From a virus, in the IMG/VR virus record IMGVR_UViG_3300017971_000137, positions 1 to 39,917 of that record: 39,917 nt of DNA, one strand, 5' to 3'. Position 1 is the first letter of the stretch; the number at the start of each line of letters is the position of its first letter. The notes under the pieces were generated by a model. That model saw only the letters and a list, made by a program, of their open reading frames with translations. It had not been told where the DNA came from and did not search any database. Shown here piece after piece: positions 1,555 through 39,172 of the stretch. The position numbers and the translations under genes were made by a program.

Positions 1555-1799
1555 CGTCGGAAAAGTACAATAGAGCTATTGAGATCAACAGAGAGATCGT
1601 CGAACTGAAAGAAGCAGGGGATCGCCTCGACAAAGACGGAGCGATCATTTCAACGTTGTCGATCCGTAATCAAGGAATGGGCGATTATCCGTTCGATGTT
1701 CACGCTTTCAAAGAGTTCGAACTGAAGCTCCGCGCTGAATTGATGGAGCTTTTAAATCGACGGATCTCGGCACTGAATGACGAGTTTGAATCGCTCTGA
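1551..1799 (+). CDS. Small helical early protein ending inside a ribozyme (82 aa)
   Basis: A mostly helical, charged protein (RAIEINREIVELKEAGDRL near the N-terminus; a second helix near the C-terminus). It follows AAAGGAGACGG. Its last codons, Ser-Leu-stop, are written in the stem I strand and catalytic core of the hammerhead at 1784-1849. The gene at 39439-39642 ends in the same Ser-Leu-stop for the same reason. The function is unknown. Confidence 0.7.
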   Translation: MTSEKYNRAIEINREIVELKEAGDRLDKDGAIISTLSIRNQGMGDYPFDVHAFKEFELKLRAELMELLNRRISALNDEFESL

Positions 1800-1849
1800 C
1801 GAGTTCGGAAGAACGAAACGCTCTCTTCGGAGAGCGTCAGCGATTAAAC
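1784..1849 (+). ncRNA. Hammerhead ribozyme, type I (copy B)
   Basis: All core elements are present in the right order. CUGACGA lies at 1796-1802. Stem II is 1803-1806 paired with 1811-1814, capped by GGAA. GAA (G12-A14) lies at 1815-1817. Stem III is 1818-1825 paired with 1830-1837, capped by UUCG. C17 is at 1838. Stem I is 1789-1795 paired with 1839-1845, and extends to 1784/1849 if G1788 bulges. The open helix is stem I, which defines type I. Known hammerhead chemistry predicts cleavage between 1838 and 1839, leaving a 5'-hydroxyl RNA that begins 28 nt before the next ATG. Catalysis itself is inferred. Confidence 0.93.
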
Positions 1850-1866
1850 GAAAGGGGAAAAAGAAA

Positions 1867-2049
1867 ATGACAGTCGAAGCAATGAAAGAATTGATTCGAG
1901 AAATGCCAGACGAGATGCATGTTATTATTCGCGAAAAGCACGGCCGGAAGTTCACAGTGAACGCCGCTGACTATGTTCGCGAATACGACAGCGAAGGCGT
2001 CGCGGTGTCAAGTCGGCTTGAATTAATTGAAGGAGGTACATCGACGTGA
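1867..2049 (+). CDS. Small protein of an intragenomic family (60 aa)
   Basis: The start at 1867 follows GAAAGGGGAAAAAG and is the first ATG after the ribozyme cleavage site. The N-terminus (MTVEAMKELIREMPDEMHVII) resembles those at 8219 and 13513: a short helix with Leu/Met pairs, a 'P-D/K' turn, then a beta strand. The three look like distant paralogues. The C-terminus alternates strand-like segments. The function is unknown. Confidence 0.7.
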   Translation: MTVEAMKELIREMPDEMHVIIREKHGRKFTVNAADYVREYDSEGVAVSSRLELIEGGTST

Positions 2050-2219
2050 GGTACATAAAAATCGTTTTGACGATCATTGCTGTATTGCTTTTCGCGAACT
2101 TGATCAAAGGAACGCTTGTTCGCGAGCCGATCGCATCGGGTGTTACGAACGTCAATATTCAATCGGTAGGCGGCGCGACGATTTTCGGCGGCGTCCTTCC
2201 AGTAAAGGGGGTAAAATGA
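2046..2219 (+). CDS. Small single-span membrane protein, GTG start (57 aa)
   Basis: The GTG at 2046 follows a strong AAGGAGG site, one of the few canonical Shine-Dalgarno sequences in this genome. The N-terminus is one hydrophobic segment (IKIVLTIIAVLLFANLI) followed by a short exterior tail containing Thr/Gly/Val. It overlaps its neighbours by four bases on each side. It could be a membrane-acting early protein; no family is recognised. Confidence 0.65.
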   Translation: MRYIKIVLTIIAVLLFANLIKGTLVREPIASGVTNVNIQSVGGATIFGGVLPVKGVK

Positions 2220-2392
2220 AAAGAGCAATCAGAGAGAGGATTCGGCGACAGTGGGAAGAAAACTGCGAAATGTTCGAAGACAAGTCGACACCATTCGTCG
2301 TGAAGATCACAGCTGATCAATGCGGCGTACAGTACAACGACGTGATCGACGCAGTCATGAAGTCGCCGGAAGAAAGCGAGGTCAAATCATGA
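2216..2392 (+). CDS. Small hypothetical early protein (58 aa)
   Basis: The ATG at 2216 follows AAAGGGGGTAAA. The product has a basic N-terminal helix (KRAIRERIRRQWEENCEMF) and an acidic C-terminus. It overlaps both neighbours by four bases. No family is recognised. Confidence 0.65.
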   Translation: MKRAIRERIRRQWEENCEMFEDKSTPFVVKITADQCGVQYNDVIDAVMKSPEESEVKS

Positions 2393-2589
2393 CATTGATC
2401 AAGGCAAACGACGCGACGGAAGTCGGGCGCGAGTTCGGCAGGATATCTGGACAGCTTTCGTATTTGCTGCAGAACCCTGAAACGCGAAAGTTCCTTCTCG
2501 ATTTCGAAGAACAGGTCGAGTATATCAAAAACGAGCTGGTCAGAATCGGAGCGCAAGTCATAACAAAAGGCAGCCCTGACGAGTCGTGA
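2389..2589 (+). CDS. Small helical early protein ending inside a ribozyme (66 aa)
   Basis: A charged, helical protein (GREFGRISGQLSYLLQNPET...), possibly a coiled-coil oligomer. The start overlaps the preceding stop. The last residues (SPDES and the stop) are encoded by stem I, core and stem II of the hammerhead at 2570-2628, so the stop stays on the 5' cleavage product. No family is recognised. Confidence 0.7.
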   Translation: MTLIKANDATEVGREFGRISGQLSYLLQNPETRKFLLDFEEQVEYIKNELVRIGAQVITKGSPDES

Positions 2590-2628
2590 ACGACGAAACG
2601 AGCGACAAAAGTGTCGCTCGTCGGCTGT
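2570..2628 (+). ncRNA. Hammerhead ribozyme, type I (copy C)
   Basis: CUGACGA lies at 2576-2582. Stem II is 2583-2586 paired with 2591-2594, loop UGAA. GAA lies at 2595-2597. Stem III has 9 bp, 2598-2606 with 2613-2621, loop of six. C17 is at 2622. Stem I has five Watson-Crick pairs plus a G-U pair, 2570-2575 with 2623-2628. The stems differ in sequence from copies A and B but keep pairing and core, which is the covariation expected of a functional RNA. Predicted cleavage is between 2622 and 2623, just upstream of the promoter at 2639. Confidence 0.9.
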
Positions 2629-2698: not shown

Positions 2699-2869
2699 AT
2701 GGCTTGGGATAGACGAAACGTTGCGATCAGCACTGAAGCTGGAGTCGTTCTCGAAAAGTATATCAACGCTTTCAGGCTGAAGCCGAAAATCAAAGACGTC
2801 GTCGAAGCTGCTCTTGAAGAGTATTACGAACGACATCCTGCTCCAAATGAAATGAAGAAAGGAGCTTGA
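2699..2869 (+). CDS. Small DNA-binding-like protein, possible ribbon-helix-helix (56 aa)
   Basis: The start at 2699 follows GAAAGGGGATCAA. The layout of a short strand (RRNVAIST), a helix, a turn and a second helix (KIKDVVEAALEEYYERH) matches small ribbon-helix-helix regulators such as Arc/CopG in length and pattern. It is the first gene after the 2639 promoter, so autoregulation is possible. The fold assignment is inferred by eye. Confidence 0.6.
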   Translation: MAWDRRNVAISTEAGVVLEKYINAFRLKPKIKDVVEAALEEYYERHPAPNEMKKGA

Positions 2870-2872
2870 CGG

Positions 2873-3757
2873 ATGGGAAAAGAACTCGCTCGAAGAGAGA
2901 CGGAAGTCGACTTCTGGAACGGCTACTCTGACGAAGAGAAAGAGATCATTAAACAGACAGTCGCGTTTAACATTAAGTTAAGCGACGCTGAATGGAAGCT
3001 GTTCGGTTACATCTGCAAAAAAGCTGACCTGAATCCATTTCTCAAACAGATTTACGTTGTCAAGAAATCGATCGGTGGCGTTCTGAAGATGGTAGTCATG
3101 ATCGGGATTGACGGCTATCGATCGATCGCGGAGAGAACGGGGAGGTTCGGCGGAGTCAGCGAATACACGTTCGACAAAGGCCTGACTCAATATGAAATGA
3201 TCGAGAAGTATGGCAAGGAAAAAGACAACGTCGACAAACGCGAAGCCGACGAGAAGCGCGATCGTTTCTCACCGCCGAATATAATTCCGCGAACAGCGAC
3301 GTGTTCTGTTTACAAGGTCGTTCACAACGTCAAAATCGAAACGACAGCAACTGTTCGCTGGTCAGAATATTATCCGACGAACAAAAACAATCGCTTCATG
3401 TGGAATAAAATGCCGTTTAATCAGCTCGGCAAATGCGCGGAAGCGAAAGCACACCGTAAGGCGTTCCCGGGGTTATTCGGAGAGCTGTACATCCCCGAAG
3501 AACTCGGAGTCGACGTCACAGAGTATACCGAAGAGACAGTCGATCTGCAGAACGAAGCTGCGACGCTGTATTCGGAGCTGCAGTTCAATCGCGCTGCGAT
3601 TATCGATTTCAATGTCGGGCATTGCTCGAAGGGAAACCTCGCCGACATGAATCGTTATGAGCTGGAATCTCTTGTCGATCGGTTAAAACAGAAAGTAAAG
3701 GAGACGTTCGAAAATGGAGACGAAAAAACCGACGCTGTCATGGTCGAAGATTCATAA
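2873..3757 (+). CDS. recT: RecT/Bet-type single-strand annealing recombinase
   Basis: The 294-residue protein has the RecT family hallmarks: an N-terminal region of the type NP(F)LKQIYVVKK (residues 52-65), the VMIGIDGYRSIAERTGRF block (about 75-92), and the NQLGKCAEAKAHRKAFPGL block (about 183-201). RecT anneals complementary single strands and works with a 5'-3' exonuclease, which here is the next gene. The ATG at 2873 follows AAAGGAGCTTGACGG. The length matches the family, and the acidic C-terminal tail is typical of annealases. Confidence 0.9.
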   Translation: MGKELARRETEVDFWNGYSDEEKEIIKQTVAFNIKLSDAEWKLFGYICKKADLNPFLKQIYVVKKSIGGVLKMVVMIGIDGYRSIAERTGRFGGVSEYTFDKGLTQYEMIEKYGKEKDNVDKREADEKRDRFSPPNIIPRTATCSVYKVVHNVKIETTATVRWSEYYPTNKNNRFMWNKMPFNQLGKCAEAKAHRKAFPGLFGELYIPEELGVDVTEYTEETVDLQNEAATLYSELQFNRAAIIDFNVGHCSKGNLADMNRYELESLVDRLKQKVKETFENGDEKTDAVMVEDS

Positions 3758-4847
3758 AGCAAAGTGTTTACTCCGATATAAGCATCACTACATTGACAAA
3801 GACATTCAGGATGAACAGACTGACCCCATGAAAGTCGGCGCGCTTGTTCACGATATTATATTCGCGTATTCGCAAGCGTGTATCGATCAACACGTCGACG
3901 GCGATTATGAGCTGCTCACGGAGCTGGTCGACAATATGTTCAAGGAATCAGAACTCGACCTCGAATATTACAAACAAGTTCGCGGTTCTGTTATCCGATT
4001 CGCTGAACGATCGTTTCGGTTCGAGTACATGAAAGACTTCGAGCGCGAAGGAACGGCGGAGATCGGCGTCGACTCGAAGGGAATGCCGATTCTTATAGCG
4101 TACAAGATCGATCGAACCGACGTCGAAGAAACTCCGAGCGGACCCTGCCTGTTCACGATCGACTACAAAAACCAGTTGAACCTTTTGAGCGAGACGGAAG
4201 TCGCAGATCATGAGCAGCTGCAGCTTTACGACTACTTGAACTGCTATCACATACACCCGAATTACGCTATTCATCAACGCGGAATCTATTTCATTCGATG
4301 GGGATCGCTGCGATGGGCTGGCGAGTACCGAACGCTCGGCGAGGACACAGAATACTTCGACAACATAGAAGCGTGGCTTCGTATGCAATGGGAGCGTATC
4401 ATCTATGCGACGAAGTATTATCCGACGCCTGGCAAATACTGCTTTGACCCTTGTCCTGTCTTCACTGCTGGTAAGTGTCCGATCTGGTCGAAGGAACAAG
4501 TCGAAGCATACAGAACAGGACACGAACTGATCGAGAAAGTTCGCTATCTTCGACGGCTTGATCATATGAGAAAACAGGCATACGATGAGGTGAAAGCTCT
4601 CGCGCCAGACGAAGAGACAGTCGAGGTTGACGGAACAGAAGTCGGCTACACTGTGAGCGAGTCGTACAATTACGGCTTCGACGAGCTGCTCAAATGGTGC
4701 AAGAAAAACGGCGTCAGCTTGTCCGATATGGGGCTGTCAAAGTATGCAGTCGAGAAGACAGTCAAGCGACAGCTCGACACGCATTATTTGCCTGAATCGA
4801 TAGAGGGTATACGCAATGAAACAAGAACAAAAAAGTTCGTATTCTGA
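3714..4847 (+). CDS. Cas4/RecB-like PD-(D/E)XK exonuclease
   Basis: The 377-residue protein carries a PD-(D/E)XK-type site: an upstream GALVHDIIF helix (about residues 42-50) and the catalytic strand FTIDYKNQL, in which Asp and Lys act with a metal. One Cys near residue 18 and three more in CFDPCPVFTAGKC (about 243-255) match the four-Cys iron-sulfur staple of Cas4 and AddB proteins. It partners RecT by supplying single strands. The start follows AAAGGAGACG and overlaps recT by 44 bases, so the two are likely translated together. Confidence 0.85.
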   Translation: METKKPTLSWSKIHKAKCLLRYKHHYIDKDIQDEQTDPMKVGALVHDIIFAYSQACIDQHVDGDYELLTELVDNMFKESELDLEYYKQVRGSVIRFAERSFRFEYMKDFEREGTAEIGVDSKGMPILIAYKIDRTDVEETPSGPCLFTIDYKNQLNLLSETEVADHEQLQLYDYLNCYHIHPNYAIHQRGIYFIRWGSLRWAGEYRTLGEDTEYFDNIEAWLRMQWERIIYATKYYPTPGKYCFDPCPVFTAGKCPIWSKEQVEAYRTGHELIEKVRYLRRLDHMRKQAYDEVKALAPDEETVEVDGTEVGYTVSESYNYGFDELLKWCKKNGVSLSDMGLSKYAVEKTVKRQLDTHYLPESIEGIRNETRTKKFVF

Positions 4848-8626: not shown

Positions 8627-9070
8627 ATGAGCAGTAAACCGAAACGAAAGAACCCGCGTCTCAGCAATTATCAGAAACAGAAAAAAGCAGAGAAGGAAGG
8701 GCGTCGTGGATACAGCGTCGGCTCGGTAGTGACAGTCAACAACGCAGTGAATGAAGTCATCGCAGAGAATCGCATCGGCGAGTTTAACATCGATTCGAAG
8801 CTGATCGACGGCGTTCCTTTCGCTCACTATCAGCTGTTACAGAGTCAGTTCGTAATAGTGCGAATGGAGCCGCTTCCGCACAACAAAGGAATATTCATCG
8901 TTCGAGCTTTCTCGCCGATCTTCGAAGCTCACGACTCGCTTCCGCCTGTTATCCCGAAATACAAAATCGATATGAAATTGAGCCTTCCAGAAAAAGAAGG
9001 CGACGAAGTGCAGCTCGACATCAAAGCGGAGAAAATGACGAGCAGTCAAATTATTCTGCCTGGACAATGA
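8627..9070 (+). CDS. Hypothetical protein with basic N-terminus (147 aa)
   Basis: The start follows TAAGGGGGAGAA. The first 27 residues are strongly basic (KPKRKNPRLSNYQKQKKAEK), suggesting nucleic-acid contact. The remainder is beta-rich. It overlaps the next gene in ATGA. No family is recognised. Confidence 0.65.
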   Translation: MSSKPKRKNPRLSNYQKQKKAEKEGRRGYSVGSVVTVNNAVNEVIAENRIGEFNIDSKLIDGVPFAHYQLLQSQFVIVRMEPLPHNKGIFIVRAFSPIFEAHDSLPPVIPKYKIDMKLSLPEKEGDEVQLDIKAEKMTSSQIILPGQ

Positions 9071-9264
9071 CGAAATTGAAAAGCTTCAAGCTGTTCTGGG
9101 ACTTGAATCGGCAAGACGCCGACAGGAGGCTTCTCGCGTTCAAAGCTTCTGACGAATACAAGTTCATGAGAGAGAAGCTTCAGAAGCTGTACGCTGAAGC
9201 GTATCATCAAAATTACGGCGGAGGGTTGAAACGCTATGGAACAAACAACGTCGTCGACGATTGA
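9067..9264 (+). CDS. Small hypothetical protein (65 aa)
   Basis: It starts in the ATGA overlap and is helical and basic (FWDLNRQDADRRLLAFKA). It overlaps the ParB-like gene by 29 bases. Position links it to that gene; no family is recognised. Confidence 0.6.
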   Translation: MTKLKSFKLFWDLNRQDADRRLLAFKASDEYKFMREKLQKLYAEAYHQNYGGGLKRYGTNNVVDD

Positions 9265-9748
9265 AATCTATAATCCGATTAAACTTCCGACGATCGATTT
9301 TAAGCTGCTTGTCGAGCTACAGGAAGACTTCAAGAAATCAACGCCAGAAAGCATCGAGTCTTTAAAGAACAGCATCCTGCAGGAAGGTTTCAGGTTCCCC
9401 AAGTTCGTATGGCTGAACGATGACAAGACGTACATTCTCGACGGTCATCAAACGAAGAAAGCTCTCGAAGAGCTTGCATACGAGGGGTACGACATTCCAG
9501 AAATACCGATCGTACCGATTCCGGCTGACAACAGAGATCACGCGATTTCATTGTTGTTCATCTTGAACTCGCGGTTCGGCGACGTCGACCCCGGATCTGA
9601 TTTCCTGCTTAAATACATGGAGCTGCTTGCCGAGCTGCGAAAGCGTGACATCGTGCGGCTGCCAGAAGTGAAGATACCGATGTTCGAGATTCCAAAAGCT
9701 CGGAAAGAAGCGACAAAAAAATGCCCGAAATGTGGGTTCGAATGGTGA
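9236..9748 (+). CDS. ParB-like protein with C-terminal zinc knuckle
   Basis: The 170-residue protein has a ParB/sulfiredoxin-type domain: a strand set (KFVWLNDDKTYILDGHQTKKALEEL) containing the GHxx box at about residues 70-73 where ParB proteins have GERR or GHRR. It ends in CPKCGFEW, a zinc-knuckle half. Stand-alone domains of this type in phages are often next to enzymes that modify DNA or nucleotides rather than being partition proteins, and no partition ATPase is present here. It directly precedes and overlaps the coupling region of the radical SAM gene. Confidence 0.75.
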   Translation: MEQTTSSTIEIYNPIKLPTIDFKLLVELQEDFKKSTPESIESLKNSILQEGFRFPKFVWLNDDKTYILDGHQTKKALEELAYEGYDIPEIPIVPIPADNRDHAISLLFILNSRFGDVDPGSDFLLKYMELLAELRKRDIVRLPEVKIPMFEIPKARKEATKKCPKCGFEW

Positions 9749-9755
9749 GCGAAAA

Positions 9756-11027
9756 ATGAAAAAACGCAAGGTAGGACTTCTGATTCTTCCGTCGACAGTA
9801 GACAGGCGATATAATAATCGGAGATCTGTCGACAACCTTCCGCTATACGGTTTCCGATACATCATAAGCGAGATTGACAACAGCCGGAATCAAGTCGAAT
9901 GGGTATCGCCGCGTAAGGTCGATGATTACGACGCGGTTCTCTGCAGCTTGCACAGTTACAGAGACGTGGTCGCGCTGTCGGAGATCGGGAGCGGTCATAA
10001 AGCGCGGATAATCGCAGGAGGGCCCGGGGTCCTGAACTTGAAGCTGCTCGCTGATTATATCGACGTCGGCGTTCTCGGTCGCGGCGAAGGACTGATCAAC
10101 GCTTTGCTCGAAGACGGCGAAGCTCTTGGCGTCTGGCAGAAGCGATTCGACCCTGAAGTAAACGATGTCTATCACGTTCGGCAGCTGTCCGAGTTCGTCG
10201 ACTATGACGATTACCACGAAGAGAGCGTCGGCTGCCGCCGACATTGCGCGTTCTGTCAGTATTCATGGAAGCATACGTTCAAGACGCGAAGCAAAAAAGA
10301 GAGTTATTCGAGCGACCTTTCAGATCAAGAAATTGAACTCGATAAATTGAAGTTCGGTTCGAAGCGATATCTCTATGCTGGCATGGACGGATTAACAGAA
10401 GAGATTCGTCGAGTCGTCAACAAACAGATAACGAAAGAACAGGTGATGTTCTCGTTACGGCAAATATACGACGCTGAACATTCGAGTTATACGCTCCGGC
10501 TTTACAATATCGTGAACTTCCCTTTCGCTCCTGATAACGACTATTCAGAGTTTCAAGAGTGCTTGAATGAAGCAGACGGAGAGAGCAATAAAAAACTGTT
10601 AATCTTCATGATGAACTCGCCGTTCATGCCCGAGCCGCTCACGCCTATGGAACAAGAGCGAGTAATTATCAAGCAGCACAGACGCGAGCATTTCTATTTT
10701 GAGGGAAGCTCGATTCAGTGTATCAAGACAAAAGAGTCTCGAAGCTTTCTGTCAGCGATCGAGCAGACGTGCGTCAACCGCTGCGATCGAGCGAGATCTG
10801 CGACACTGCTCGCGATGCTTCGCTCTTCGAGATACAGAAACTCTGGAGTCTTGGCACGTTACGCAATGCTGAAAGAAACGATCGGTACTGACCTGTTCGG
10901 CGAGCTGGACAAGCCGCCGCTTCCGTTCATCGCGTCGCCGAAAGGCCTCGAGCGAGCGAAGGATTTATACTACGAAAGGAAGGTGCAATACCTTGACAGA
11001 ACTCATTCGGTACTTCAAAGACACTGA
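9756..11027 (+). CDS. Radical SAM enzyme with B12-binding-like N-terminal domain
   Basis: The 423-residue protein starts at the ATG at 9756, eight bases after the ParB-like stop; a GTG at 9732 is less likely. Residues 1-125 look like a cobalamin-binding Rossmann domain of the class-B radical SAM type (KVGLLILPST..., DDYDAVLCSL, IIAGGPGVLN, GVLGRGEG). The motif C160-x3-C164-x2-C167 (GCRRHCAFC) is the canonical 4Fe-4S radical SAM site. The downstream barrel includes MFSLRQIYDAEHSS and LRLYNIVNFPF. The substrate is unknown. Base cobalamin contact (the DxHxxG motif) is not evident, so B12 binding is uncertain. Confidence 0.82.
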   Translation: MKKRKVGLLILPSTVDRRYNNRRSVDNLPLYGFRYIISEIDNSRNQVEWVSPRKVDDYDAVLCSLHSYRDVVALSEIGSGHKARIIAGGPGVLNLKLLADYIDVGVLGRGEGLINALLEDGEALGVWQKRFDPEVNDVYHVRQLSEFVDYDDYHEESVGCRRHCAFCQYSWKHTFKTRSKKESYSSDLSDQEIELDKLKFGSKRYLYAGMDGLTEEIRRVVNKQITKEQVMFSLRQIYDAEHSSYTLRLYNIVNFPFAPDNDYSEFQECLNEADGESNKKLLIFMMNSPFMPEPLTPMEQERVIIKQHRREHFYFEGSSIQCIKTKESRSFLSAIEQTCVNRCDRARSATLLAMLRSSRYRNSGVLARYAMLKETIGTDLFGELDKPPLPFIASPKGLERAKDLYYERKVQYLDRTHSVLQRH

Positions 11028-11286
11028 ACACGCGAAAGCGTTCTGGCAGAAAAACTGTCGCGCATGTAAAAAGCTGAAGAAATGCTCAAACGCTGCGTCG
11101 ATCGAAACTGTTCTGAATATCGATTACGAGAAAGCACCGTATCCGAGCGAGCCTCAATGGATGAAAATAATCTGCAGATCGAGAAAGTTCCGCGTGACCG
11201 AGCATGACAAAGTCGGTTACTGCGAAATCGGTAGCGGAAGAGATAAAGGAGTCAGGCCGGACAAAGCATTTTTCAAAATCGATTAA
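10993..11286 (+). CDS. Cys-containing partner of the radical SAM gene (97 aa, TTG start)
   Basis: A TTG start after AAAGGAAGGTGCAA overlaps the radical SAM gene by 35 bases. The segment CRACKKLKKC (about residues 18-27) with further Cys residues near 57 and 72 could ligate a metal or an iron-sulfur cluster. The tight overlap suggests it works with the radical SAM enzyme, perhaps as a specificity or redox partner. No family is recognised. Confidence 0.65.
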   Translation: MTELIRYFKDTEHAKAFWQKNCRACKKLKKCSNAASIETVLNIDYEKAPYPSEPQWMKIICRSRKFRVTEHDKVGYCEIGSGRDKGVRPDKAFFKID

Positions 11287-11296
11287 AGGGGGATTT

Positions 11297-11521
11297 ATGC
11301 AGAGAGTCTTCGCGAACATCAACGATGTTCACCCGTCTATGATGAGCAGCACATCATACAATTCGCAAGAGGTCGAACTATATAAATGCATCAATGTTGA
11401 CATACTCTTGAACAGGCTCGAAAAAAAGCTGCAAGGTGGCAGCGAACATCATTGTATAGCGTCTGAAGATGCGATCAAAATGATTGAGCAGTTTCGAAAT
11501 GGGGAGCAGGGCGCATGTTAA
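11297..11521 (+). CDS. Small hypothetical protein (74 aa)
   Basis: The start follows TAAAGGGGGATTT; an in-frame ATG at 11204 lies in the previous gene. The product is mixed helix and loop. It marks the beginning of a lower-GC block of small genes. No family is recognised. Confidence 0.6.
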   Translation: MQRVFANINDVHPSMMSSTSYNSQEVELYKCINVDILLNRLEKKLQGGSEHHCIASEDAIKMIEQFRNGEQGAC

Positions 11522-11565
11522 TCGACGATTATTATTATATGCGCGAAGTTCTGAAAGGGGAAACT

Positions 11566-11841
11566 ATGAACAAGCCGAAAAAGAAATTATCGAGTGAAGT
11601 TGCAAAGTATGTGGGTTATGGACAGCTGGTTTATTGGTATCCTGCCGACGAAATGGATGCGTATGTGCGTGAGCTTGCAAAGCGTGTGTTGCCGTTGTTT
11701 GAACTTGCTCCGCATGAGTGGGGGTGCAATATACAGAAATGGGGTTTTGTCGGCAATAAATGCAACTGTTCATATGCCGGAATATTAGCCGAACTTGAAC
11801 AACTGGCGAAAGGGGGAGAGGATGAGTGTATCAATTCTTGA
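11566..11841 (+). CDS. Accessory-island protein 1 (91 aa)
   Basis: The ATG at 11566 follows GAAAGGGGAAACT. An alternative in-frame ATG at 11515 overlaps the previous stop and would add 17 residues. The protein has aromatic N-terminal strands (YVGYGQLVYWYPADEM), a Trp/Cys-containing middle and the C-terminal AKGGEDE peptide encoded by the ribosome-binding junction of the next gene. It uses fewer CGA and TCG codons than the core genes, a sign of separate origin. Confidence 0.65.
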   Translation: MNKPKKKLSSEVAKYVGYGQLVYWYPADEMDAYVRELAKRVLPLFELAPHEWGCNIQKWGFVGNKCNCSYAGILAELEQLAKGGEDECINS

Positions 11842-12049
11842 AGCATTACAGGGAGCAGACTACAATTTGAGGCATGGTATGGGGATTGGATTAATGGTTG
11901 CAAAAGACCAGATTCATAATGCTGTAACGCTGCTGGAAAAAGGGTACGGTTTATACGAGCAAGTTGAACCATTGCTTGAGAAATATGGCGATGTAGAGAA
12001 TGTGCCAGCCAAAGGGGGAAAGGATGAAGAGATTAATAGAGATAGATGA
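11822..12049 (+). CDS. Accessory-island protein 2 (75 aa)
   Basis: It starts at the first junction repeat and overlaps the upstream gene by 20 bases. The protein is helical (AKDQIHNAVTLLEKGYGLYE) and ends AKGGKDE plus a short tail. No family is recognised. Confidence 0.6.
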   Translation: MSVSILEALQGADYNLRHGMGIGLMVAKDQIHNAVTLLEKGYGLYEQVEPLLEKYGDVENVPAKGGKDEEINRDR

Positions 12050-12224
12050 TATTGTAATGGTTATCTGGAAAAGTGGCATAATACAAAGGGGGCGAGTTGA
12101 ACACAGCCCTGCGGACTCGGGCGATATGTGGTACATACGAGAAGGAAAAACACTACACGCAATAAACCCGTCTTGTTCAGACCTTATAGAAATCACATTG
12201 ATAGCCACAAGGGGGAGAGGATGA
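12024..12224 (+). CDS. Accessory-island protein 3 (66 aa)
   Basis: The start follows the second junction repeat. The protein is beta-rich with an SH3-like run (DIVMVIWKSGIIQRGRVEHS). Here the junction is read in a different frame and gives ATRGRG at the C-terminus. No family is recognised. Confidence 0.6.
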   Translation: MKRLIEIDDIVMVIWKSGIIQRGRVEHSPADSGDMWYIREGKTLHAINPSCSDLIEITLIATRGRG

Positions 12225-12439
12225 GCATAGGTGATGATTTGAGAGATATGGTTTTTAAACGTACAGGTTTGAGGGAAGATGAATTATATTGCCCACGAGA
12301 AAAGTCGGATATGACACCGTGTGTAGCAAGAGATGGCGATTGTGCTATGACTAATGATTTCTATTGTGTTGGGTGCGGTGTATCAGTACAGGAATTAATA
12401 GAAGAAGAGATAGCCAAAGGGGGAGAGGATGAAGTGTAA
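12221..12439 (+). CDS. Accessory-island protein 4, Cys-rich (72 aa)
   Basis: It begins at the third junction. Four or more Cys residues (YC, PC, DC, CVGC) suggest a zinc site. It ends AKGGEDEV through the next junction. Small zinc proteins of this kind are common in phage accessory regions; the function is unknown. Confidence 0.65.
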   Translation: MSIGDDLRDMVFKRTGLREDELYCPREKSDMTPCVARDGDCAMTNDFYCVGCGVSVQELIEEEIAKGGEDEV

Positions 12440-12635
12440 GTATTGCGGAAAGGAAAGAGAAACGAACAGCCCAATTGTATCATACAAACGTTCTGAATGG
12501 CGTGGGGCTGGCAACTGGATGGGGGCTTATGAATATGAAACTGAAGAGTTCACTGACAGTGGGGCGTTCTGTTCAGATAAATGTCTGTTCAAATATTTGA
12601 GCGAAAAGACGCTTATTTATAGCCAAAGGGGTTGA
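12429..12635 (+). CDS. Accessory-island protein 5, zinc-finger-like (68 aa)
   Basis: CKYC at residues 3-6 and FCSDKC at about residues 48-53 form a Cys4 treble-clef pattern like TRASH/FCS-type fingers. It starts at the fourth junction and ends at the fifth. No specific role can be assigned. Confidence 0.65.
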   Translation: MKCKYCGKERETNSPIVSYKRSEWRGAGNWMGAYEYETEEFTDSGAFCSDKCLFKYLSEKTLIYSQRG

Positions 12636-12638
12636 GGA

Positions 12639-12848
12639 ATGGAGGAATTAGCAAAGGCACTAAATGAATATGATGGAGCAGATGAAAGCCTTAATAATTT
12701 AAATGAAGCTGCAAATAAATGGGCTTTTTTTGTGTTAAAAGCTCATAATGGCAAATTGAGAAAACGTGGCATGGATATTACATTTGCGATATGTGATTAT
12801 ATAGACGCATTACAACTCGCCAAAGGGGGAGAGGATGAACACATATAG
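12639..12848 (+). CDS. Accessory-island protein 6, helical (69 aa)
   Basis: The start follows the divergent fifth junction (AAAGGGGTTGAGGA). The product is almost all helical (LAKALNEYDGADESLNNL...) and ends LAKGGEDEHI. No family is recognised. Confidence 0.6.
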   Translation: MEELAKALNEYDGADESLNNLNEAANKWAFFVLKAHNGKLRKRGMDITFAICDYIDALQLAKGGEDEHI

Positions 12849-13107
12849 GTGTTTTTTTTATCTATTAGACGGTGGGCAGGAGTTCGGCAAACCGAAGGGC
12901 GATGTTCAATATCAGTTTCCAGAAGTAAAAACAATGGTAATACTCAGCGACCACGAGCAAGCCCTTGCCGAGAAAGACAAAGAGTGCGAGCGGTACAAGG
13001 TGGCGCTACAAAAAGCACACGAAGCATCTGATTTCAAAACAGCAATAAAGATAACTGGCGAAGCACTGAAAGGGGGAGAGGATGGAACATCACGAAGCTT
13101 TGAATAA
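12835..13107 (+). CDS. Accessory-island protein 7, partial coiled coil (90 aa)
   Basis: It starts at the sixth junction. After a short strand-rich N-terminus, the segment EQALAEKDKECERYKVALQ forms a coiled coil shared with the next gene; 25 bases (12955-12979) are repeated exactly at 13163-13187. It ends LKGGEDG plus a short tail. No family is recognised. Confidence 0.6.
   Translation: MNTYRCFFYLLDGGQEFGKPKGDVQYQFPEVKTMVILSDHEQALAEKDKECERYKVALQKAHEASDFKTAIKITGEALKGGEDGTSRSFE
12955..12979 (+). repeat. 25-base direct repeat, copy 1 (copy 2 at 13163-13187)
   Basis: The sequence encoding EQALAEKD is identical over 25 bases in two neighbouring genes. A second shared stretch, TGCGAGCGGTAC plus flanks, lies at 12985-13003 and 13343-13361 with one mismatch. 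This points to recent duplication or recombination between adjacent coiled-coil genes. Confidence 0.85.
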
Positions 13108-13516
13108 GTTAAAAGATACCGAAGGTGCTTTGTTTAGAGAATGCGAGAAAGTCGTAAAACTTGAGCAAGCCCTTGCCGAGAAAGACACAGAGCTGACGGA
13201 ACACAAGAAGGCATTAGTTATGCAGGTGGAAGAGACAACAAGGCTTCGTCGGGAGATAGAGCGGTTAAGGGAAGTACATGCTGATGAAAAAGTGGCATGG
13301 AAAGCAAAACATAATGCAGAAATGACGGTTATTGAGCAACAATGCGAGCGGTACAGGGTGGAACTCATAGAAGCGTTAAAATGGAAAGCCGATATGATAG
13401 AGTATCATCAAGGGGCACAATATGTAATTGAATTAAGAAAACGCATCGAAGCACTGAAAGAAAAGAATGACGATCACGACAGAGAAAGCCAGCCGATAGC
13501 GGACAGACTCGAATGA
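13082..13516 (+). CDS. Accessory-island protein 8, long coiled coil (144 aa)
   Basis: Nearly the whole protein is heptad-rich (LEQALAEKDTELTEHKKAL, then LRREIERLREV...). It starts at the seventh junction and shares repeated segments with the previous gene. The end overlaps the next gene by four bases, and codon use returns to the core pattern there. It may be structural or a spacer; no family is recognised. Confidence 0.65.
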   Translation: MEHHEALNKLKDTEGALFRECEKVVKLEQALAEKDTELTEHKKALVMQVEETTRLRREIERLREVHADEKVAWKAKHNAEMTVIEQQCERYRVELIEALKWKADMIEYHQGAQYVIELRKRIEALKEKNDDHDRESQPIADRLE

Positions 13517-24817: not shown

Positions 24818-24831
24818 AACATATCGCTCGT
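24787..24831 (+). promoter_or_regulatory. Programmed -1 frameshift site
   Basis: The heptamer C CCT TTA (24787-24793) fits X XXY YYZ in the chaperone frame. A -1 frame stop TAG (24784-24786) lies immediately upstream, so the shift must occur at or after it. Six bases later a perfect 10-bp stem (24800-24809 with 24822-24831) begins. The -1 frame is then open to 25065. All elements of a bacterial-phage frameshift signal are present. Confidence 0.85.
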
Positions 24832-25065
24832 ATAATGTTTCGTGGCTTGCCGATCGCGCAGGAAGGCGAAGCTGCAGAATGGGCTCGGAAATGGGGACGA
24901 TGGGTTTATATGTTCGACAATCTCCGCGACGCTGCAGGAGACTATCGGCATTTTCCGAGAGCTGGCGGCTATTACGATCAGCCAGCGATTGTCCTTGATA
25001 TACTGAACGCTATTCGCGACGTGTACAAGACGGAGCGAAAAAAGGAACAACCGGGTGCCCCCTAA
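24793..25065 (+). CDS. Tail assembly chaperone T domain (made by -1 frameshift)
   Basis: This frame continues the chaperone after the slip and adds about 90 residues, giving a G-T fusion of about 218 residues. It contains FRGLPIAQEGEAAEWARKWGRW. An internal ATG at 24835 could also start it but has no good ribosome-binding site. In lambda the GT protein bridges the tape measure and tail tube; the same role is inferred here. The coordinates give the post-slip frame only. Confidence 0.75.
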   Translation, partial: TEHERYEIKHIARIMFRGLPIAQEGEAAEWARKWGRWVYMFDNLRDAAGDYRHFPRAGGYYDQPAIVLDILNAIRDVYKTERKKEQPGAP

Positions 25066-27103
25066 ATCAGAAATCATTCTTGGACTTCGAGACATGACAG
25101 GGCCGGGGCTCGCGAAAGCTTCGAAGAGCATGAAAGCTTTCGGGCAGTCTCTGAACAGAGTCGGAAAGCGCATGTCGCTTTTCGTGACGGGCCCTCTTGT
25201 CGCGATGGGAGCTGTCGCGCTGAAGAACGCCGCGCAGTTCGAGAAGCAGACAGTCGCGTTCGAAGTTCTTCTCGGATCAGCTGAAAAAGCTCAAGTCTTG
25301 CTGAAAGACATTGAGAAGTTCGCAGCGACTACCCCGTTTCAAATGCCAGGACTTATTGACGGAGCGCAGCGGTTGCTCGCGTTCGGAATCGAAGCAGAGA
25401 AAGTCGTCGATACGATGCGGAGCCTCGGCGATCTGGCTATGGGCGATCAGCAAAAGCTCGACCGACTGACAGACGCGTTCGGGAAAGTCGCTTCTCGCGG
25501 CAAAGCGTCAATGCGTGAGCTGAATATGTTCATCTATTCAGGAGTTCCTGTCGTTCAGCAGCTCGCCGATCAGTTCGACGTCACGACAGAAGAGCTGTTC
25601 AAAATGTCAGAGCAAGGGCTGGTCACGTTCGAAGCTGTACAGAAAGCAGTCTCTTCTATGACGGGCGAAGGCGGTCAGTTCTACAGAATGACAGAGAAGC
25701 AATCGAAAACGCTCGCCGGACTGTTCTCCACACTGAAAGACAATATCGGAATGCTCGGTCGCGAGATCATGGAAGTCATAATGCCAGCCCTGAAGAACTT
25801 TATCGATAAAGCGATAACGTTCGTTCAGAAGCTCCGCAACATGGACGACGACACGAAAAAGCTCATTCTGAAAATGGTTGCGATCGCAGCTGCTATCGGG
25901 CCTGTCATCATGGCGATCGCCGCGCTCGCGACAGCTCTCGGCGTGATCATTTCTCCGATCGGGCTTGTCGTTCTCGCAATCGGCGCGCTCGGGACAATTG
26001 CTATCCTCGTCTTGAAGAACTGGGAAAAGGTTTCAGGATTCCTGAAAGACTTGTGGCTTGATATCGCAGATTTCGCGAACAGGATATTCCAGCATATAAA
26101 AGTCGCAGTCATGACACCGATTCGCGAGGTTCTGGAGTTCGTTCTAAAAATCGCAGAGACGACGAAGAAAGTCTTCAAAGGCATTAACCTCGAAGGAATC
26201 GAATCTGCTCTTGCTGGCGTGAACGATAAAATCGACGAAAGCCGGAACACGCTTGAAGCTCTCCGCGAGCAAGGGTACAGAACAACAGACGATTTCAAAG
26301 CGTTCGGAGAAAACGTCGCGAGCCTTGCGAAAAAAGTCGGCGCGCTCGCTGTTAAACTGAAAGACGTCATTGTCGACGGCTTCAATATGGGCGACATGGT
26401 AGGCGGCGTCGCTGACGAAATGAAGGGCATGGCAGACGCTCTCAATGCAGCTGACGACAGCTTGCGGCAGCACGAAGAGGGCATCGGCAGAATGGGGCGC
26501 GCTTACTACGGGCTGTCTGGAGCTGTGCAAATCGGAACGTCTTCGCTTGCGAGCGCAGCTGAAGCCTACGAGAAAGCGAAAGCTGACGCTGCAGAGTATG
26601 AATCGTACATCATGAGCATAACGAACAAAACGCTCCCGATCTGGTCGAACGCATGGACAAAGATCGGCGACTCGACAGCGAAGGTTCTCGACAGCTTGAA
26701 AGAAGCAATGAAGGACACGTTCGCAGCACTGCTTGAAATGCTCGGAAAAGAAATGCTCGTTCGTGCGATGAAAGCATTAATTCCGGCGATCGGCGTATTC
26801 AATCCAGCTGCTGCCGCGCCAGCATTCGCAGCGTCTGCCGCCGCTTTTGCAGCTGCAGGGTTCATCCGATCGCTCGCGCAAGGCGGACAGTTTACAACGA
26901 GCGGCCCTGAAATGGTAATGGTCGGAGATAATCCGTCAGGTCGAGAGCGAGTCACAGTCGAGCCGCTTGGCGGAGCTGAAGAACCTTCCGAACGAGTAAT
27001 CGAAAATGTTATATCTATCGACGGGCAGTCGTTCTTTAAAGCGTTGACGAGAGCGACGAAATCAGGCGAGTTCATTGTCCATAGAAAGGCGGTCGTCGGA
27101 TGA
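25055..27103 (+). CDS. Tail tape measure protein
   Basis: The 682-residue protein starts with GTG overlapping the T frame. It has a tape-measure domain (FEVLLGSAEKAQVLLKDIEK, TTPFQMPGLIDGAQRLLAFG), two or three hydrophobic stretches near residues 270-320 and a helical remainder. By the usual rule of about 1.5 angstroms per residue it predicts a tail near 100 nm. The end overlaps the next gene. Confidence 0.9.
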   Translation: MPPKSEIILGLRDMTGPGLAKASKSMKAFGQSLNRVGKRMSLFVTGPLVAMGAVALKNAAQFEKQTVAFEVLLGSAEKAQVLLKDIEKFAATTPFQMPGLIDGAQRLLAFGIEAEKVVDTMRSLGDLAMGDQQKLDRLTDAFGKVASRGKASMRELNMFIYSGVPVVQQLADQFDVTTEELFKMSEQGLVTFEAVQKAVSSMTGEGGQFYRMTEKQSKTLAGLFSTLKDNIGMLGREIMEVIMPALKNFIDKAITFVQKLRNMDDDTKKLILKMVAIAAAIGPVIMAIAALATALGVIISPIGLVVLAIGALGTIAILVLKNWEKVSGFLKDLWLDIADFANRIFQHIKVAVMTPIREVLEFVLKIAETTKKVFKGINLEGIESALAGVNDKIDESRNTLEALREQGYRTTDDFKAFGENVASLAKKVGALAVKLKDVIVDGFNMGDMVGGVADEMKGMADALNAADDSLRQHEEGIGRMGRAYYGLSGAVQIGTSSLASAAEAYEKAKADAAEYESYIMSITNKTLPIWSNAWTKIGDSTAKVLDSLKEAMKDTFAALLEMLGKEMLVRAMKALIPAIGVFNPAAAAPAFAASAAAFAAAGFIRSLAQGGQFTTSGPEMVMVGDNPSGRERVTVEPLGGAEEPSERVIENVISIDGQSFFKALTRATKSGEFIVHRKAVVG

Positions 27104-27846
27104 GGTTTCTATACACAAACGAGTTTGATGACACCGACTACACGATAACGGAGAACTCAGAAAACGCTTCATACCCTGTCGAGAATGCGCGAGATCCGCA
27201 GCTCACAAGAAAATACTGGACGACTGGAGATTCGGCGGAATGGGTGAAGCTCGACGGCGGAGCATCTGAAGCGATTACTGCGAACTGTGCGTTCATCGCC
27301 GGACACAATCTGACGAACGGCGGCACATATGCGATCGAGGGAAACAACACAGACAGCTGGGGAACCCCTACTGTTGATGAAGCGATCACTCATGCAGCTG
27401 GCGTCATGTGGAAAGCGTTCACTTCCGACGATCTCAGATACTGGAGATTCAATCTCGTTGATGCAGCGAACCCCGACGGCGTTCTGAAAGTCGGCCGGCT
27501 CGGACTCGGAACGTATTTCGATCTCTCAGTATACGCGCAGTCGTTCTTCTCTCGGAATTATGTCGATACATCGAAAATGAAGCGAGGGCTGACAGGACAG
27601 GTTTTCGCGAACGAAGGAATCACATACCTCGAATACGATTTCACTTTTGACTTTTTAACGAATGCTGACAGGTTGAATCTTGAAGCTATGTGGACGGCGA
27701 ATAAAAAAGCGAAGCCGATCGTGTTTATTCCGAACCCATCCGACTCGACGCTGCTTCCGTTTTACGGGTATATATCGAAGTTCAGCCTGACGCATAAAGT
27801 CGCGTGGACATGGCAAGCAAGGATCACGCTTACAGAGGGGTTATAA
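27100..27846 (+). CDS. Tail tip protein, putative distal tail or adsorption component (248 aa)
   Basis: The protein is beta-rich. The first half resembles a galactose-binding jelly roll (YPVENARDPQLTRKYWTT, then CAFIAGHNL, WRFNLVDA); the second half is also strand-rich (TYLEYDFTFDFLTNADRL). It sits after the tape measure where distal-tail proteins lie. The start is coupled to the tape measure stop. Confidence 0.65.
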   Translation: MRFLYTNEFDDTDYTITENSENASYPVENARDPQLTRKYWTTGDSAEWVKLDGGASEAITANCAFIAGHNLTNGGTYAIEGNNTDSWGTPTVDEAITHAAGVMWKAFTSDDLRYWRFNLVDAANPDGVLKVGRLGLGTYFDLSVYAQSFFSRNYVDTSKMKRGLTGQVFANEGITYLEYDFTFDFLTNADRLNLEAMWTANKKAKPIVFIPNPSDSTLLPFYGYISKFSLTHKVAWTWQARITLTEGL

Positions 27847-27847
27847 A

Positions 27848-28678
27848 ATGAGCGGTTCAATTGTAGAAACTCCATCGTCAGGCGCAGCCTGGGCGACATG
27901 GACTGAAATGATGGAAGGAATCAGAAAGGGCTTGATTCCTTTATCGCTTACGAATTATGACGCGACGACAGTTCCGCAGATCGCCAGCGGTTCATGGATT
28001 GAAGCTGCAGGAGCAATATACAAGTTTACATCGAACGATACTATCTCAGGAACTCCGTCTTCTGGACAAGTAAATTATGTAACAATGGTCCCTTCAGGAA
28101 CTGGCGCGAGTGCGATCGTGACTCCGACATGGTCGACTTCTGCGCCGACATGGAGCGACGCATATCAAGGGTTCTATTCAGGGACGACTCGGTATGCGGC
28201 GGCGATGTGGTATGACGGAACGAATTATGTTTCTAAAAGTGTATATACAAACCGTCACGCAGGCCCTAAAACAAGGTATTATTCCCCTTCTTTTTCGTTC
28301 ACTTCCGAAGACTTGGCTGAAATGGCAATGCTCGGCGACTCGCTTGAGAATGGAAACCCCGGGGGTTTTGATCAGGCGAGAATAGCTGTGATTCTGCCTC
28401 AAGGAGCGATCGTCACAGAGCTATACTCTTATTGTTCAGCATTTACAGACGGAACGCATCAAGTTGAACTAATCAGATCAGCACACACAGCGGCGACCGA
28501 GACTCAAATGGCAACAGTCACTCATTCAGGAACAGGCGAGCTTACTGACACAACAATTACGTCTCCTGTTATAGATAACGAAACGTATGGGTATTTTATC
28601 GAGTTCGACCCTTCAACAGGAGGAACAGCGACGTTGTCAGGGATCAGACTCGAATATATAGAGATAGTACGATGTTAA
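27848..28678 (+). CDS. Tail tip protein of unknown type (276 aa)
   Basis: The start follows AGAGGGGTTATAAA. The protein is rich in Ser, Thr and Gly with many strands, typical of tail-tip or baseplate surface proteins. No specific family is recognised. Its end overlaps the lipoprotein-like gene by seven bases. Confidence 0.6.
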   Translation: MSGSIVETPSSGAAWATWTEMMEGIRKGLIPLSLTNYDATTVPQIASGSWIEAAGAIYKFTSNDTISGTPSSGQVNYVTMVPSGTGASAIVTPTWSTSAPTWSDAYQGFYSGTTRYAAAMWYDGTNYVSKSVYTNRHAGPKTRYYSPSFSFTSEDLAEMAMLGDSLENGNPGGFDQARIAVILPQGAIVTELYSYCSAFTDGTHQVELIRSAHTAATETQMATVTHSGTGELTDTTITSPVIDNETYGYFIEFDPSTGGTATLSGIRLEYIEIVRC

Positions 28679-29124
28679 AAAGATGGGTTTTAGCGTTGTG
28701 TTTAATAAGTAGCGGATGCTCGTCAGGTTTCGAAATCTGGGATTATAGCTTCGATGACGGCTTGTCAATAGAAAGCATAGAAGATGCTTTCTCATATTGC
28801 CGGGATAACATTATGTACTCACAAATCAATGAAGCAGAATGGCAACTGCCGCACGAAACTATCGAAAAAGGGCGAGGTGATTGCGAAGACTTCGCGCTGT
28901 TATTTATGTATTTAGTGTACAAATATCGCGAGACAGATGCTGTTTATTTAGTGCGCCTCGACATGGTAAATGCCCCTGGGCATCCTCATTTTATCGCACA
29001 AGTGGACGGCACCTTTTACGACCCTACAGCAGGATATGGGTTCGAATATAAATTAAATCCGATATGGAAAATAACTGATATACATAATTACGGTCATTCG
29101 ATATTCATAGCGATGGTTAAATAA
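28672..29124 (+). CDS. Transglutaminase-like cysteine peptidase with lipoprotein-like signal
   Basis: The 150-residue protein starts with a short basic and hydrophobic signal ending SSGC at residues 13-16, a relaxed lipobox. The rest has the transglutaminase-like triad: Cys71 in RGDCEDFALL, His104 or His106 in GHPHFIAQV, and Asp117 in GTFYDPT. Such enzymes hydrolyse or cross-link peptide amides. Placement between tail genes suggests either a virion wall-processing enzyme or a membrane-anchored host-altering protein. Codon use is more AT-rich than its neighbours, suggesting later acquisition. Confidence 0.75.
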   Translation: MLKRWVLALCLISSGCSSGFEIWDYSFDDGLSIESIEDAFSYCRDNIMYSQINEAEWQLPHETIEKGRGDCEDFALLFMYLVYKYRETDAVYLVRLDMVNAPGHPHFIAQVDGTFYDPTAGYGFEYKLNPIWKITDIHNYGHSIFIAMVK

Positions 29125-29125
29125 T

Positions 29126-31459
29126 ATGGCGTGGGCTGACGAAGCATCGAAAACGAATCAAAGACATATCGTGCTTGTCGAAGCGAATGTCGGCAAATCA
29201 GATCTCCCGTTCGTGAACGAAGGCCCTGGCATTTGGAAAGCGCGGATTTTCGGAGAATGGAAAGACGAACCGTATGGATATGAGGAAGCGTTTCTCGTCG
29301 GGCTGTTCGAAGAGTCTGGCGATGCTGATCTCATGACGCCGCAATTCTCTTATTCTGTCGACGTCGGAGAAGCTTCAGAAGACGGCGTCGCTTTGACGGA
29401 ACGTGCGACTTACGCTTTAATGTACGCGAACGCTGGTTCGTATTATTGGGACAGAGACGAGCAAGAGGTTTACGTTCATTGTGTCAGTAGCGGCTTTATT
29501 CACGACCACGTCGTCAGCGTTGGAATCAAGTTCAACCTGACGAACGATTCAGCAGCGAACGACCTCGGAGAAGGGTTCTACGACGAACGGCTCATGAGTG
29601 TCGGGGGACTGACAAAGACGAAAGACAATCTCTCTTACGGCTTGATTCAGAACGCGAGCGGCTCGATCGAAATCAACAACCACGACGGGCGGTTCGACTG
29701 GCTCGCTGAATCAGACATATTCGGACAGCAGCTCACAATCAAGTATGGATTTTTCGGGCTGGCGTATGCTGATTATATAAACCTTACTCGGACATATACA
29801 GAGAGCGCGAAGTTCACGACAGCGAAAGTACAGCTCCAGCTCCGCGACGACCGACAGCGGCTGCAGCGCAAGTTCCCGTTAAGCGTTTTCAGCACTGGCG
29901 ATTATCCGAACTTGAGCGAAGAAGACGTCGGGAAGCCGATTCCGTGGCGGTATGGCGAGCTGAAAAGAGTACGTTGTATTTGCACGAACAGGACAGAGAG
30001 CAGCCCGACTACATTCGATTATAAGCTTGTCGACGTCGCTGATCATCCAGGCGGAATAATTGACGTCACAAAAGTGATCGCCGGAGATCAAGAGATCGCT
30101 ACAGCGAACTGGACAGTCGATCTTTTGACAGGAGTTCTCTCAATAACACGGAATGCTTCGAGGTGGGGCGGTGATGATTTCGACCCTGAATCAGAAGTTT
30201 ATGCTGATATTATCGGTTTCGGCACAAGAAACCTTGTTTTGCGTGGGGATTGCGAAAGCGAATCTGAACCGATGATATTCAATGAAACGACTCCCGAAAA
30301 CTCAAACGCAACGTGGGAAAGGAGCTCGGCTCAGGCGCATGAAGGAACTTTCAGTTATCTATTGACGAAGACGAGTTCAGGGGGCGGCGGAAACGCGAGG
30401 GTCGCATTAATTAATAATTGGTCGGTTACTGACGATATGCATGGGTTTTCGCCGGGGGATCAGATCACATACACGGCATGGGTTTACACTGACGTGGCGA
30501 CAGCAAGCAATATGTATATTTCAATCGAAGAGTATTATGGAGCTTCGTGGAACATTACGACAGATGCGGCGACAACGACGGGGGCATGGGAGAAGCTGTC
30601 TATTACTCTTACGATCAATTCTGGGACAACTGGTATTCTGTTCGGGATTAAAATATTGAGCGCGGAAGCAGCCGGAAAAGTATGTTATGTTGATGAAATA
30701 CAAATAGAGAAAGCAGCCGCAGCGACCGACTTCATCTTGCGAGAGCAGCTGCAGGAACCTCTCGACATACTCGAAGACGTGATCGAGACTATCGCAGAGA
30801 TCACCTACAACGGAACAAACTTCGATACGACGGCGTGGGAGGCTTTGAAAACACATCCGCTCGCGCAGAAAGTCGGAATTGATATCAGCAAAGCGACGTC
30901 GGTTCTCGATATCATCGAGCTTGTCTGTCGCAGTATAGGCGGTCATTTTATCCGCCAGGACGACGGAACATACACAATCAAGATTACCGACGCAGCGGCG
31001 GCGATCTCCGAGACGATCACGCTTGACGACTACATGGGCGAAGCTGATATCGACCCTGATACAGATAACTTGATCAGCGTTGCGCGAGTCGAGTTCACAT
31101 ACAATCAGAACAGGCGCGATGCAGCTCTCGTCGTTCTGGATTCCGAGCGGACATACGTTTTCTCGAAATACGGGATTGACAACGAAGTCGAGCTGAAAAC
31201 AGCACTGACGAAGAACGAGAACGCGACAGCTCTCGGACAGCACATCTTATCATTGTTCAAAGACGCGTTCCCGATCGTGAGCGTTCCTGTCTGGCATAAC
31301 TTCATGGAGCTTGACGTCATGGATGTGGTACAGCTCGCAGTAAAACGAGACGACGGAGCGACGATCATTCCTGATATCGTCGGCGAAGTTAATAGAATAA
31401 AGAAAGACCCGGTCAACGGAATCGTCGAGCTTGAAGTCAGAAAATTGAGGACTGCGTGA
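29126..31459 (+). CDS. Tail hub or tip protein with inserted carbohydrate-binding-like domain
   Basis: 777 residues. The N-terminal and C-terminal parts resemble tail-tip or hub proteins (GSIEINNHDGRFDWL; then VARVEFTYNQNRRDA and VVQLAVKRDDGA). Residues about 375-540 form a jelly-roll-like domain of the carbohydrate-binding CBM4/9 type (AHEGTFSYLLTKTSSGGGG, FSPGDQITYTAWVYTD, VCYVDEIQIEK). It probably forms the tail tip and binds surface sugars. Confidence 0.72.
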   Translation: MAWADEASKTNQRHIVLVEANVGKSDLPFVNEGPGIWKARIFGEWKDEPYGYEEAFLVGLFEESGDADLMTPQFSYSVDVGEASEDGVALTERATYALMYANAGSYYWDRDEQEVYVHCVSSGFIHDHVVSVGIKFNLTNDSAANDLGEGFYDERLMSVGGLTKTKDNLSYGLIQNASGSIEINNHDGRFDWLAESDIFGQQLTIKYGFFGLAYADYINLTRTYTESAKFTTAKVQLQLRDDRQRLQRKFPLSVFSTGDYPNLSEEDVGKPIPWRYGELKRVRCICTNRTESSPTTFDYKLVDVADHPGGIIDVTKVIAGDQEIATANWTVDLLTGVLSITRNASRWGGDDFDPESEVYADIIGFGTRNLVLRGDCESESEPMIFNETTPENSNATWERSSAQAHEGTFSYLLTKTSSGGGGNARVALINNWSVTDDMHGFSPGDQITYTAWVYTDVATASNMYISIEEYYGASWNITTDAATTTGAWEKLSITLTINSGTTGILFGIKILSAEAAGKVCYVDEIQIEKAAAATDFILREQLQEPLDILEDVIETIAEITYNGTNFDTTAWEALKTHPLAQKVGIDISKATSVLDIIELVCRSIGGHFIRQDDGTYTIKITDAAAAISETITLDDYMGEADIDPDTDNLISVARVEFTYNQNRRDAALVVLDSERTYVFSKYGIDNEVELKTALTKNENATALGQHILSLFKDAFPIVSVPVWHNFMELDVMDVVQLAVKRDDGATIIPDIVGEVNRIKKDPVNGIVELEVRKLRTA

Positions 31460-38958: not shown

Positions 38959-38983
38959 ATATCCTTCCTATACCTCCACACAG

Positions 38984-39021
38984 ACGGAGCGCGGAACCTG
39001 TCCGCCGCGTTCCGTTTTTTT
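38984..39021 (+). terminator. Intrinsic terminator of the late operon
   Basis: An 11-bp stem (38984-38994 with 39005-39015, one G-U pair) with a 10-base loop is followed at once by seven T residues. It lies 26 bases after the last late gene and 60 bases before the early promoter region. It is the only clear Rho-independent terminator in the window. Confidence 0.92.
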
Positions 39022-39034: not shown

Positions 39035-39110
39035 GCGAAAAAAAACTTCAAAAAAAGTGAAAAAAGTTGCAAAAAAAGCTTGACAGACTTTGCAAAAATG
39101 TGCTAATATA
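39035..39110 (+). promoter_or_regulatory. Early promoter with A-tract upstream element
   Basis: TTGACA (39081-39086), an 18-base spacer and TAATAT (39105-39110) are preceded by phased A-tracts that could act as an UP element. The TTGCAAAAA direct repeats flanking the -35 box (about 39068 and 39091) may bind a regulator. A TATAAG overlapping the -10 is an alternative. It faces the early genes and the ribozymes. Confidence 0.8.
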
Positions 39111-39172
39111 AGGGTATGAAACATACGATATTAAAAAAGAATGATGATTCAAACAACGAAAGGGGAAACGAA

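Follow-up and report, generated by a model that had tools for sequence, protein, structure and literature searches.

The window analysed here, the 39,917-nucleotide virus record IMGVR_UViG_3300017971_000137 taken at its full length, contains three complete type I hammerhead ribozymes, which are intact by sequence and predicted to cleave themselves. The window is a compact example in that each of its three ribozymes stands at a border between translationally coupled gene blocks. We put the chance that the three hammerheads act in cis as mRNA punctuation at about two in three. This function is what we infer from four observed properties: the architecture of the ribozymes, its covariation across phages, their placement and a spacing rule at gene junctions.

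Identification of the three hammerheads

Both strands of the window were scanned with a mechanical descriptor, which consisted of the invariant core (CUGANGA/GAAA/UH) and three stems. The scan detected exactly three hammerheads, all of type I and all on the + strand, with cores at 1796, 2576 and 39639. Relaxing the stems, allowing type II topology or accepting one-mismatch cores did not reveal any further hammerhead in the window. The same descriptor found none in 100 first-order Markov-shuffled windows.

For a covariance model, 13 hammerheads of other phages served as the training set, with the window sequence excluded. The members were of equal stem length, because the MAFFT alignment of mixed stem lengths misplaced stem III. 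Among the 13 training hammerheads 99.5% of the base-pair cells were paired, as against 66% in shuffles, and changes on both sides occurred in 12 of the 15 pairs. The model matched copy A (1789–1845, 51.9 bits), copy B (2570–2628, 54.2 bits) and copy C (39633–39686, 52.7 bits) over the full length, with E values from 1.1e-15 to 6.6e-15. The fourth-best match in the window scored only 10.2 bits (E 0.63). A chance motif was rejected on the basis of the E values of about 1e-15 and the lack of hits in the Markov-shuffled windows. Descriptor and covariance model thus agree with the original prediction of three intact hammerheads on one strand, in one operon and at gene junctions.

All three copies contain C3 U4 G5 A6 N7 G8 A9, G12 A13 A14, the A15.1-U16.1 pair and H17 at the cut site, and in all three the core is surrounded by three helices, with stem I open-ended. 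The stems I/II/III comprise 7/4/7, 6/5/9 and 6/4/6 pairs in the three copies; the stem sequences vary, and pairing is kept in each. Stem I of copy A can be extended to 1784–1849 by GUUU/AAAC. For the minimal domains 2570–2628 and 39633–39686 the minimum-energy fold is the hammerhead, and for that of copy A (1784) the hammerhead fold lies at most 0.1 kcal/mol from the energy minimum. When copy C (39633) was folded with its flanks, a rival fold was lower by a few kcal/mol. This predicted competing structure counts against the explanation by cutting in cis.

Fast hammerhead cutting at cellular Mg2+ concentration needs tertiary contacts. The stem II loops of the window copies are GGAA, UGAA and CUAAA, similar to the loops found in other phages, and a bulge in stem I is present in copy A (1784) only.

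The hammerhead models of Rfam gave misaligned matches of 16.6–19.3 bits on the two copies tested, compared with cut-offs of 34–48.5, a cut-off being a database threshold and not a structural criterion. Searches at Rfam's own thresholds and with E up to 10 yielded no usable match for the whole window, and weak, misaligned ones when restricted to the region. With scores below the cut-offs, annotation by Rfam would miss the window copies. At the Rfam 15 gathering thresholds no hammerheads are listed in seven other phage loci, which hold about thirty. Because the models miss the hammerheads of these seven loci too, the sub-threshold scores of the window copies reflect model coverage. Phage hammerheads are probably under-annotated, the Rfam cut-offs missing them.

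Operon layout, predicted cut products and other features of the window

The virus record is circular; its ends overlap by 123 nt. A likely terminator on the + strand, a hairpin followed by TTTTTTTATT (38982–39017), would close the preceding (late) operon; the 55-nt terminator segment folds at −21.7 kcal/mol. Behind it, in the intergenic gap, the + strand carries a sigma-70-type promoter sequence (39080–39109), TTGACA-18-TAATAT with a TG before the −10 element, which matches the consensus in 10 of 12 positions. The predicted transcript start is near 39116.

The genes that follow, all on the + strand, fall into four blocks. Block 1 (39173–39642) consists of two small genes, 39173–39442 and 39439–39642, which overlap by 4 nt. 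The first gene of block 2 (39707–39917) is open at the record end, continues across the circular join to 167 and overlaps the gene at 164 by 4 nt. The rest of the block (164–1799) comprises genes 164–358, 355–555, 567–1040, 1037–1381, 1378–1554 and 1551–1799, with 4-nt overlaps between neighbours and a single 11-nt gap. Block 3 (1867–2589) contains genes 1867–2049, 2046–2219, 2216–2392 and 2389–2589, and here all overlaps are 4 nt. Block 4 starts (2699–4847) with gene 2699–2869, followed by the genes of a RecT-family annealing protein (2873–3757; Pfam RecT, 2.3e-21) and a PD-(D/E)XK nuclease (3714–4847; Pfam PDDEXK_1, 3.2e-16). A DnaC-like helicase loader is encoded further downstream. The presence of these three predicted functions supports calling the transcription unit an early operon.

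From 39173 to 4847, a 4-nt overlap (ATGA or GTGA) is the usual arrangement of neighbouring genes; apart from it there are one overlap of 44 nt and two short gaps, of 3 and 11 nt. Gaps longer than 11 nt occur only at the three ribozyme junctions (64, 67 and 109 nt). Since wide gaps are confined to these junctions and elsewhere 4-nt overlaps prevail, each ribozyme delimits one translationally coupled block from the next. A wide gap at a ribozyme is in part expected, because the 55-nt ribozyme needs room. On this gene map none of the predicted cuts breaks translational coupling; each falls between coupled blocks.

Cleavage is predicted at 39680/39681 (copy C), 1838/1839 (copy A) and 2622/2623 (copy B). 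The next start codons are at 39707, 1867 and 2699, respectively, so that the leaders from cut to start would be 26, 28 and 76 nt long. Counted from the start near 39116, the predicted pieces are 565, 1,952 and 784 nt. These values reproduce the pieces of about 570, 1,950 and 780 nt that had been proposed, as well as the leaders of 26–28 nt proposed for two of the copies, copy B being the one that lies 76 nt before its start. The ribozymes had also been described as standing directly after small genes. Their position at gene ends is correct, but they are not separate from the genes, since they overlap those ends. The stop codons of genes 39439–39642 (copy C) and 1551–1799 (copy A) share their UGA with the catalytic CUGA, and the stop codon of gene 2389–2589 lies inside the stem II loop of copy B.

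Just 3′ of copy B, an A/T-rich gap contains a TTGACA at 2639, which resembles the −35 region at 39080. We conjecture that it belongs to a second promoter (2639–2667, + strand), in which the exact TTGACA is followed, after 17 nt, by a weak TAAGTT; the promoter scan did not report this candidate. Such a promoter would free part of the downstream expression level from cutting and would thus count against the explanation by cutting in cis.

Three other regions of the window have features of their own. In region 9732–11027 Pfam gives two weak, sub-threshold matches to radical SAM domains, which are unusual for a phage of this size, and the region adjoins a small gene (9236–9748) that looks ParB-like by eye only. 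Within a run of small genes (11204–13107) we noticed by eye that the C-termini repeat KGGED(E), because the SD sequence of the next gene is read as coding near the gene border. The product of 34967–36886 is likely a tail-fibre protein; it matches a beta-helix weakly and contains numerous SDSFSLSE-like repeats.

Hammerheads at gene junctions of other phages

IMG/VR was scanned with three patterns, in each of which three stem I bases were fixed. The scans returned 10, 16 and 38 stretches, most of which are hammerheads by structure. A pattern scan of genome contigs gave four matches, none of which passed the structure filter. The covariance model matched all 50 phage records searched, with at least two copies in 16 and at least three in seven. 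In the multi-copy records the copies were always on one strand.

The position of 64 distinct phage hammerheads relative to genes was compared with random positions. A same-strand stop codon within −15 to +30 of the ribozyme 5′ end was found for 84% (random positions 9%), an SD-preceded start codon 0–45 nt past the ribozyme 3′ end for 77% (9%), and both together for 70% (1.9%); these percentages are approximate, because they are based on simple one-strand gene calls and on a sample picked by stem I sequence, in which records with many copies were more likely to be drawn. The stop ends cluster at −4 to +4, +9 to +11 and +18 to +21 of the ribozyme. With the wider comparison, the proximity of hammerheads to phage genes becomes a junction rule that can be measured and that clearly predicts RNA ends.

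Two records have especially dense arrays. In IMGVR_UViG_3300015371_000033 (24818–29535) 11 same-strand type I hammerheads stand within 4.7 kb at distances of 208–634 nt, close to one for each small gene. A similar leader (CUACCAG-AAGGA) connects most of these hammerheads with the next start codon. In IMGVR_UViG_3300037466_000798 (8691–13233) small genes are separated by seven same-strand type I hammerheads.

It had been proposed that related phages be searched for ribozymes at equivalent gene junctions. Within other phage groups, matching junctions indeed keep ribozymes with intact cores and compensatory changes in the stems. An example from one group is the change of stem II from UCC/GGA to ACC/GGU; in another group, with flanks that are 80% identical, stems II and III are rearranged. 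For the window phage itself, the early region had no DNA similarity to isolate phages. Isolate phages likewise lacked a match to the regions with several ribozymes in three other contigs, and no isolate relative was found for the array of IMGVR_UViG_3300015371_000033. With copy C as query, blastn returned three short partial matches only. Relatives were sought via terminase, RecT, nuclease and capsid, and none that covers the early region was found; the yield was only a distant RecT contig without a descriptor hammerhead and short capsid-region contigs that end before the early region.

Self-cleavage as probable mRNA punctuation

If the hammerheads punctuate the mRNA, RNA polymerase would make a single early transcript from 39080, and each emerging ribozyme would fold cotranscriptionally and cut after GUC. 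The upstream product would keep its stop codon and would end with the stem II and stem III hairpins and a 2′,3′-cyclic phosphate, an end resembling those made by terminators. The downstream product would start with a 5′-OH and, in the case of copies C and A, the short leader of 26–28 nt, followed by the SD sequence and the start codon. The position of the ribozymes, immediately 3′ of a stop codon and separated by a short leader from the next SD, agrees with cotranscriptional cutting that yields separate mRNAs. As cuts would occur only between translationally coupled blocks, each block would become an mRNA of its own with its own decay rate. Cutting in the host, a change of stability dependent on the ends and the resulting relative expression levels are the parts of this reading that we infer.

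In one assay a 5′-hydroxylated substrate was reportedly cleaved poorly by RNase E, and in E. coli hammerhead-made ends seem to be phosphorylated inefficiently; in both respects the phage host may differ. By analogy, protection of the 5′-OH products against decay is plausible. It would be at best partial, because RNase E can act by direct entry, which does not need a 5′ phosphate and can act on 5′-OH RNA too (PMC4191395).

The most serious competing explanation, which we nevertheless regard as unlikely, is that cleavage is gated by ribosomes. A translating ribosome would keep the ribozyme unfolded, and the cut would take place once upstream translation paused or ended; the ribozyme would then report translation, without constitutive action. 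The stop codons located in the CUGA core (copies A and C) or in the stem II loop (copy B) leave room for translation-gated cutting, and so does the clustering of the phage stop ends described above. In many phages, however, the stop codon sits merely at the outer edge of stem I, and the overlap with stop codons may be plain genome compactness.

The ease with which hammerheads arise and their frequent occurrence in selfish elements (PMC3088659) would suit mobile or chance passengers with no role in the phage. We find this improbable in view of the coding-strand placement at gene junctions, which is far above chance, the covariation, the persistence with compensatory changes in related phages and the absence of decayed copies in the window.

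The short and narrow distance between ribozyme and start codon could also suggest a translation switch, in which the cut would unmask the ribosome-binding site and turn on the downstream gene. The predicted accessibility of the SD sequence was nearly equal in precursor and product (mean 0.51 vs 0.54 over 51 junctions), and no junction shifted by more than 0.3. This similarity argues against release of the ribosome-binding site, which we disfavour as very improbable. Least credible of all is cutting followed by religation into circular or rearranged RNAs spanning whole blocks: tandem same-strand hammerheads could set free a unit whose ends can be ligated, as happens in retrozymes (PMC7761336), but a search by Perreault et al. 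for spliced or circular products was negative (PMC3088659), and the units of the window are unlike in length and content.

Processing of the transcript by hammerheads, our preferred reading, has precedents. The original prediction knew of no described phage operon organised in this way; this does not hold, as clusters of hammerheads in phages were described as early as 2011, and the window phage adds another case. Perreault et al. (2011, PMC3088659) reported prophages in which multiple hammerheads flank genes or short gene blocks, the ardA triple array of Agrobacterium tumefaciens being one such cluster, and suggested that the transcripts are processed to mRNAs of operon or gene length. Cleavage was shown for tandem arrays in vitro and for a triple array also in E. 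coli, whereas 4 of 18 consensus hammerheads were inactive in vitro (PMC3088659). The window shares the defining property of those clusters, in that several hammerheads on the same strand border genes or gene blocks within a single phage transcript. It differs in the phage and the genes, and here the position of the ribozymes with respect to stops, starts and coupled blocks has been worked out.

Three further systems are comparable. HHphage of haloviruses HF1 and HF2 also lies upstream of an early polycistronic gene set, and a mapped 5′ end of the halovirus early transcript is at most 3 nt from the hammerhead cut site; unlike the window hammerheads, it is a single copy with a variant core, in an archaeal host and 13 nt before the start codon (PMC3088659). 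The accessible text of a 2017 review describes close-set, clustered prokaryotic hammerheads flanking small, non-conserved, phage-linked ORFs and calls their role an open question; that text, in contrast to the present analysis, contains no junction grammar (PMC6155905). The junction spacing, which dozens of further phage contigs show too, makes the role testable. Theta ribozymes of gut phages are likewise small self-cleaving ribozymes placed to process transcripts, but they are HDV-like and cut tRNA 3′ ends, not mRNA junctions (PMC10879173). The quantified junction rule, the match to coupled-block borders, the 11-copy array and the omission from Rfam in seven loci may be new; subscription papers and supplements aside, we did not find them stated in the literature.

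We tentatively suggest, with the odds a little short of even, that many phages use hammerheads as a systematic, RNA-only mRNA punctuation, with a stop-ribozyme-SD-start grammar at the borders of coupled blocks, largely unannotated given the Rfam cut-offs. If true, the array of IMGVR_UViG_3300015371_000033 would provide a ribozyme-made mRNA for almost every gene.

As a separate observation, IMGVR_UViG_3300006923_000078 contains a type II hammerhead candidate within a type I cluster, and the two topologies may thus be mixed within one operon.
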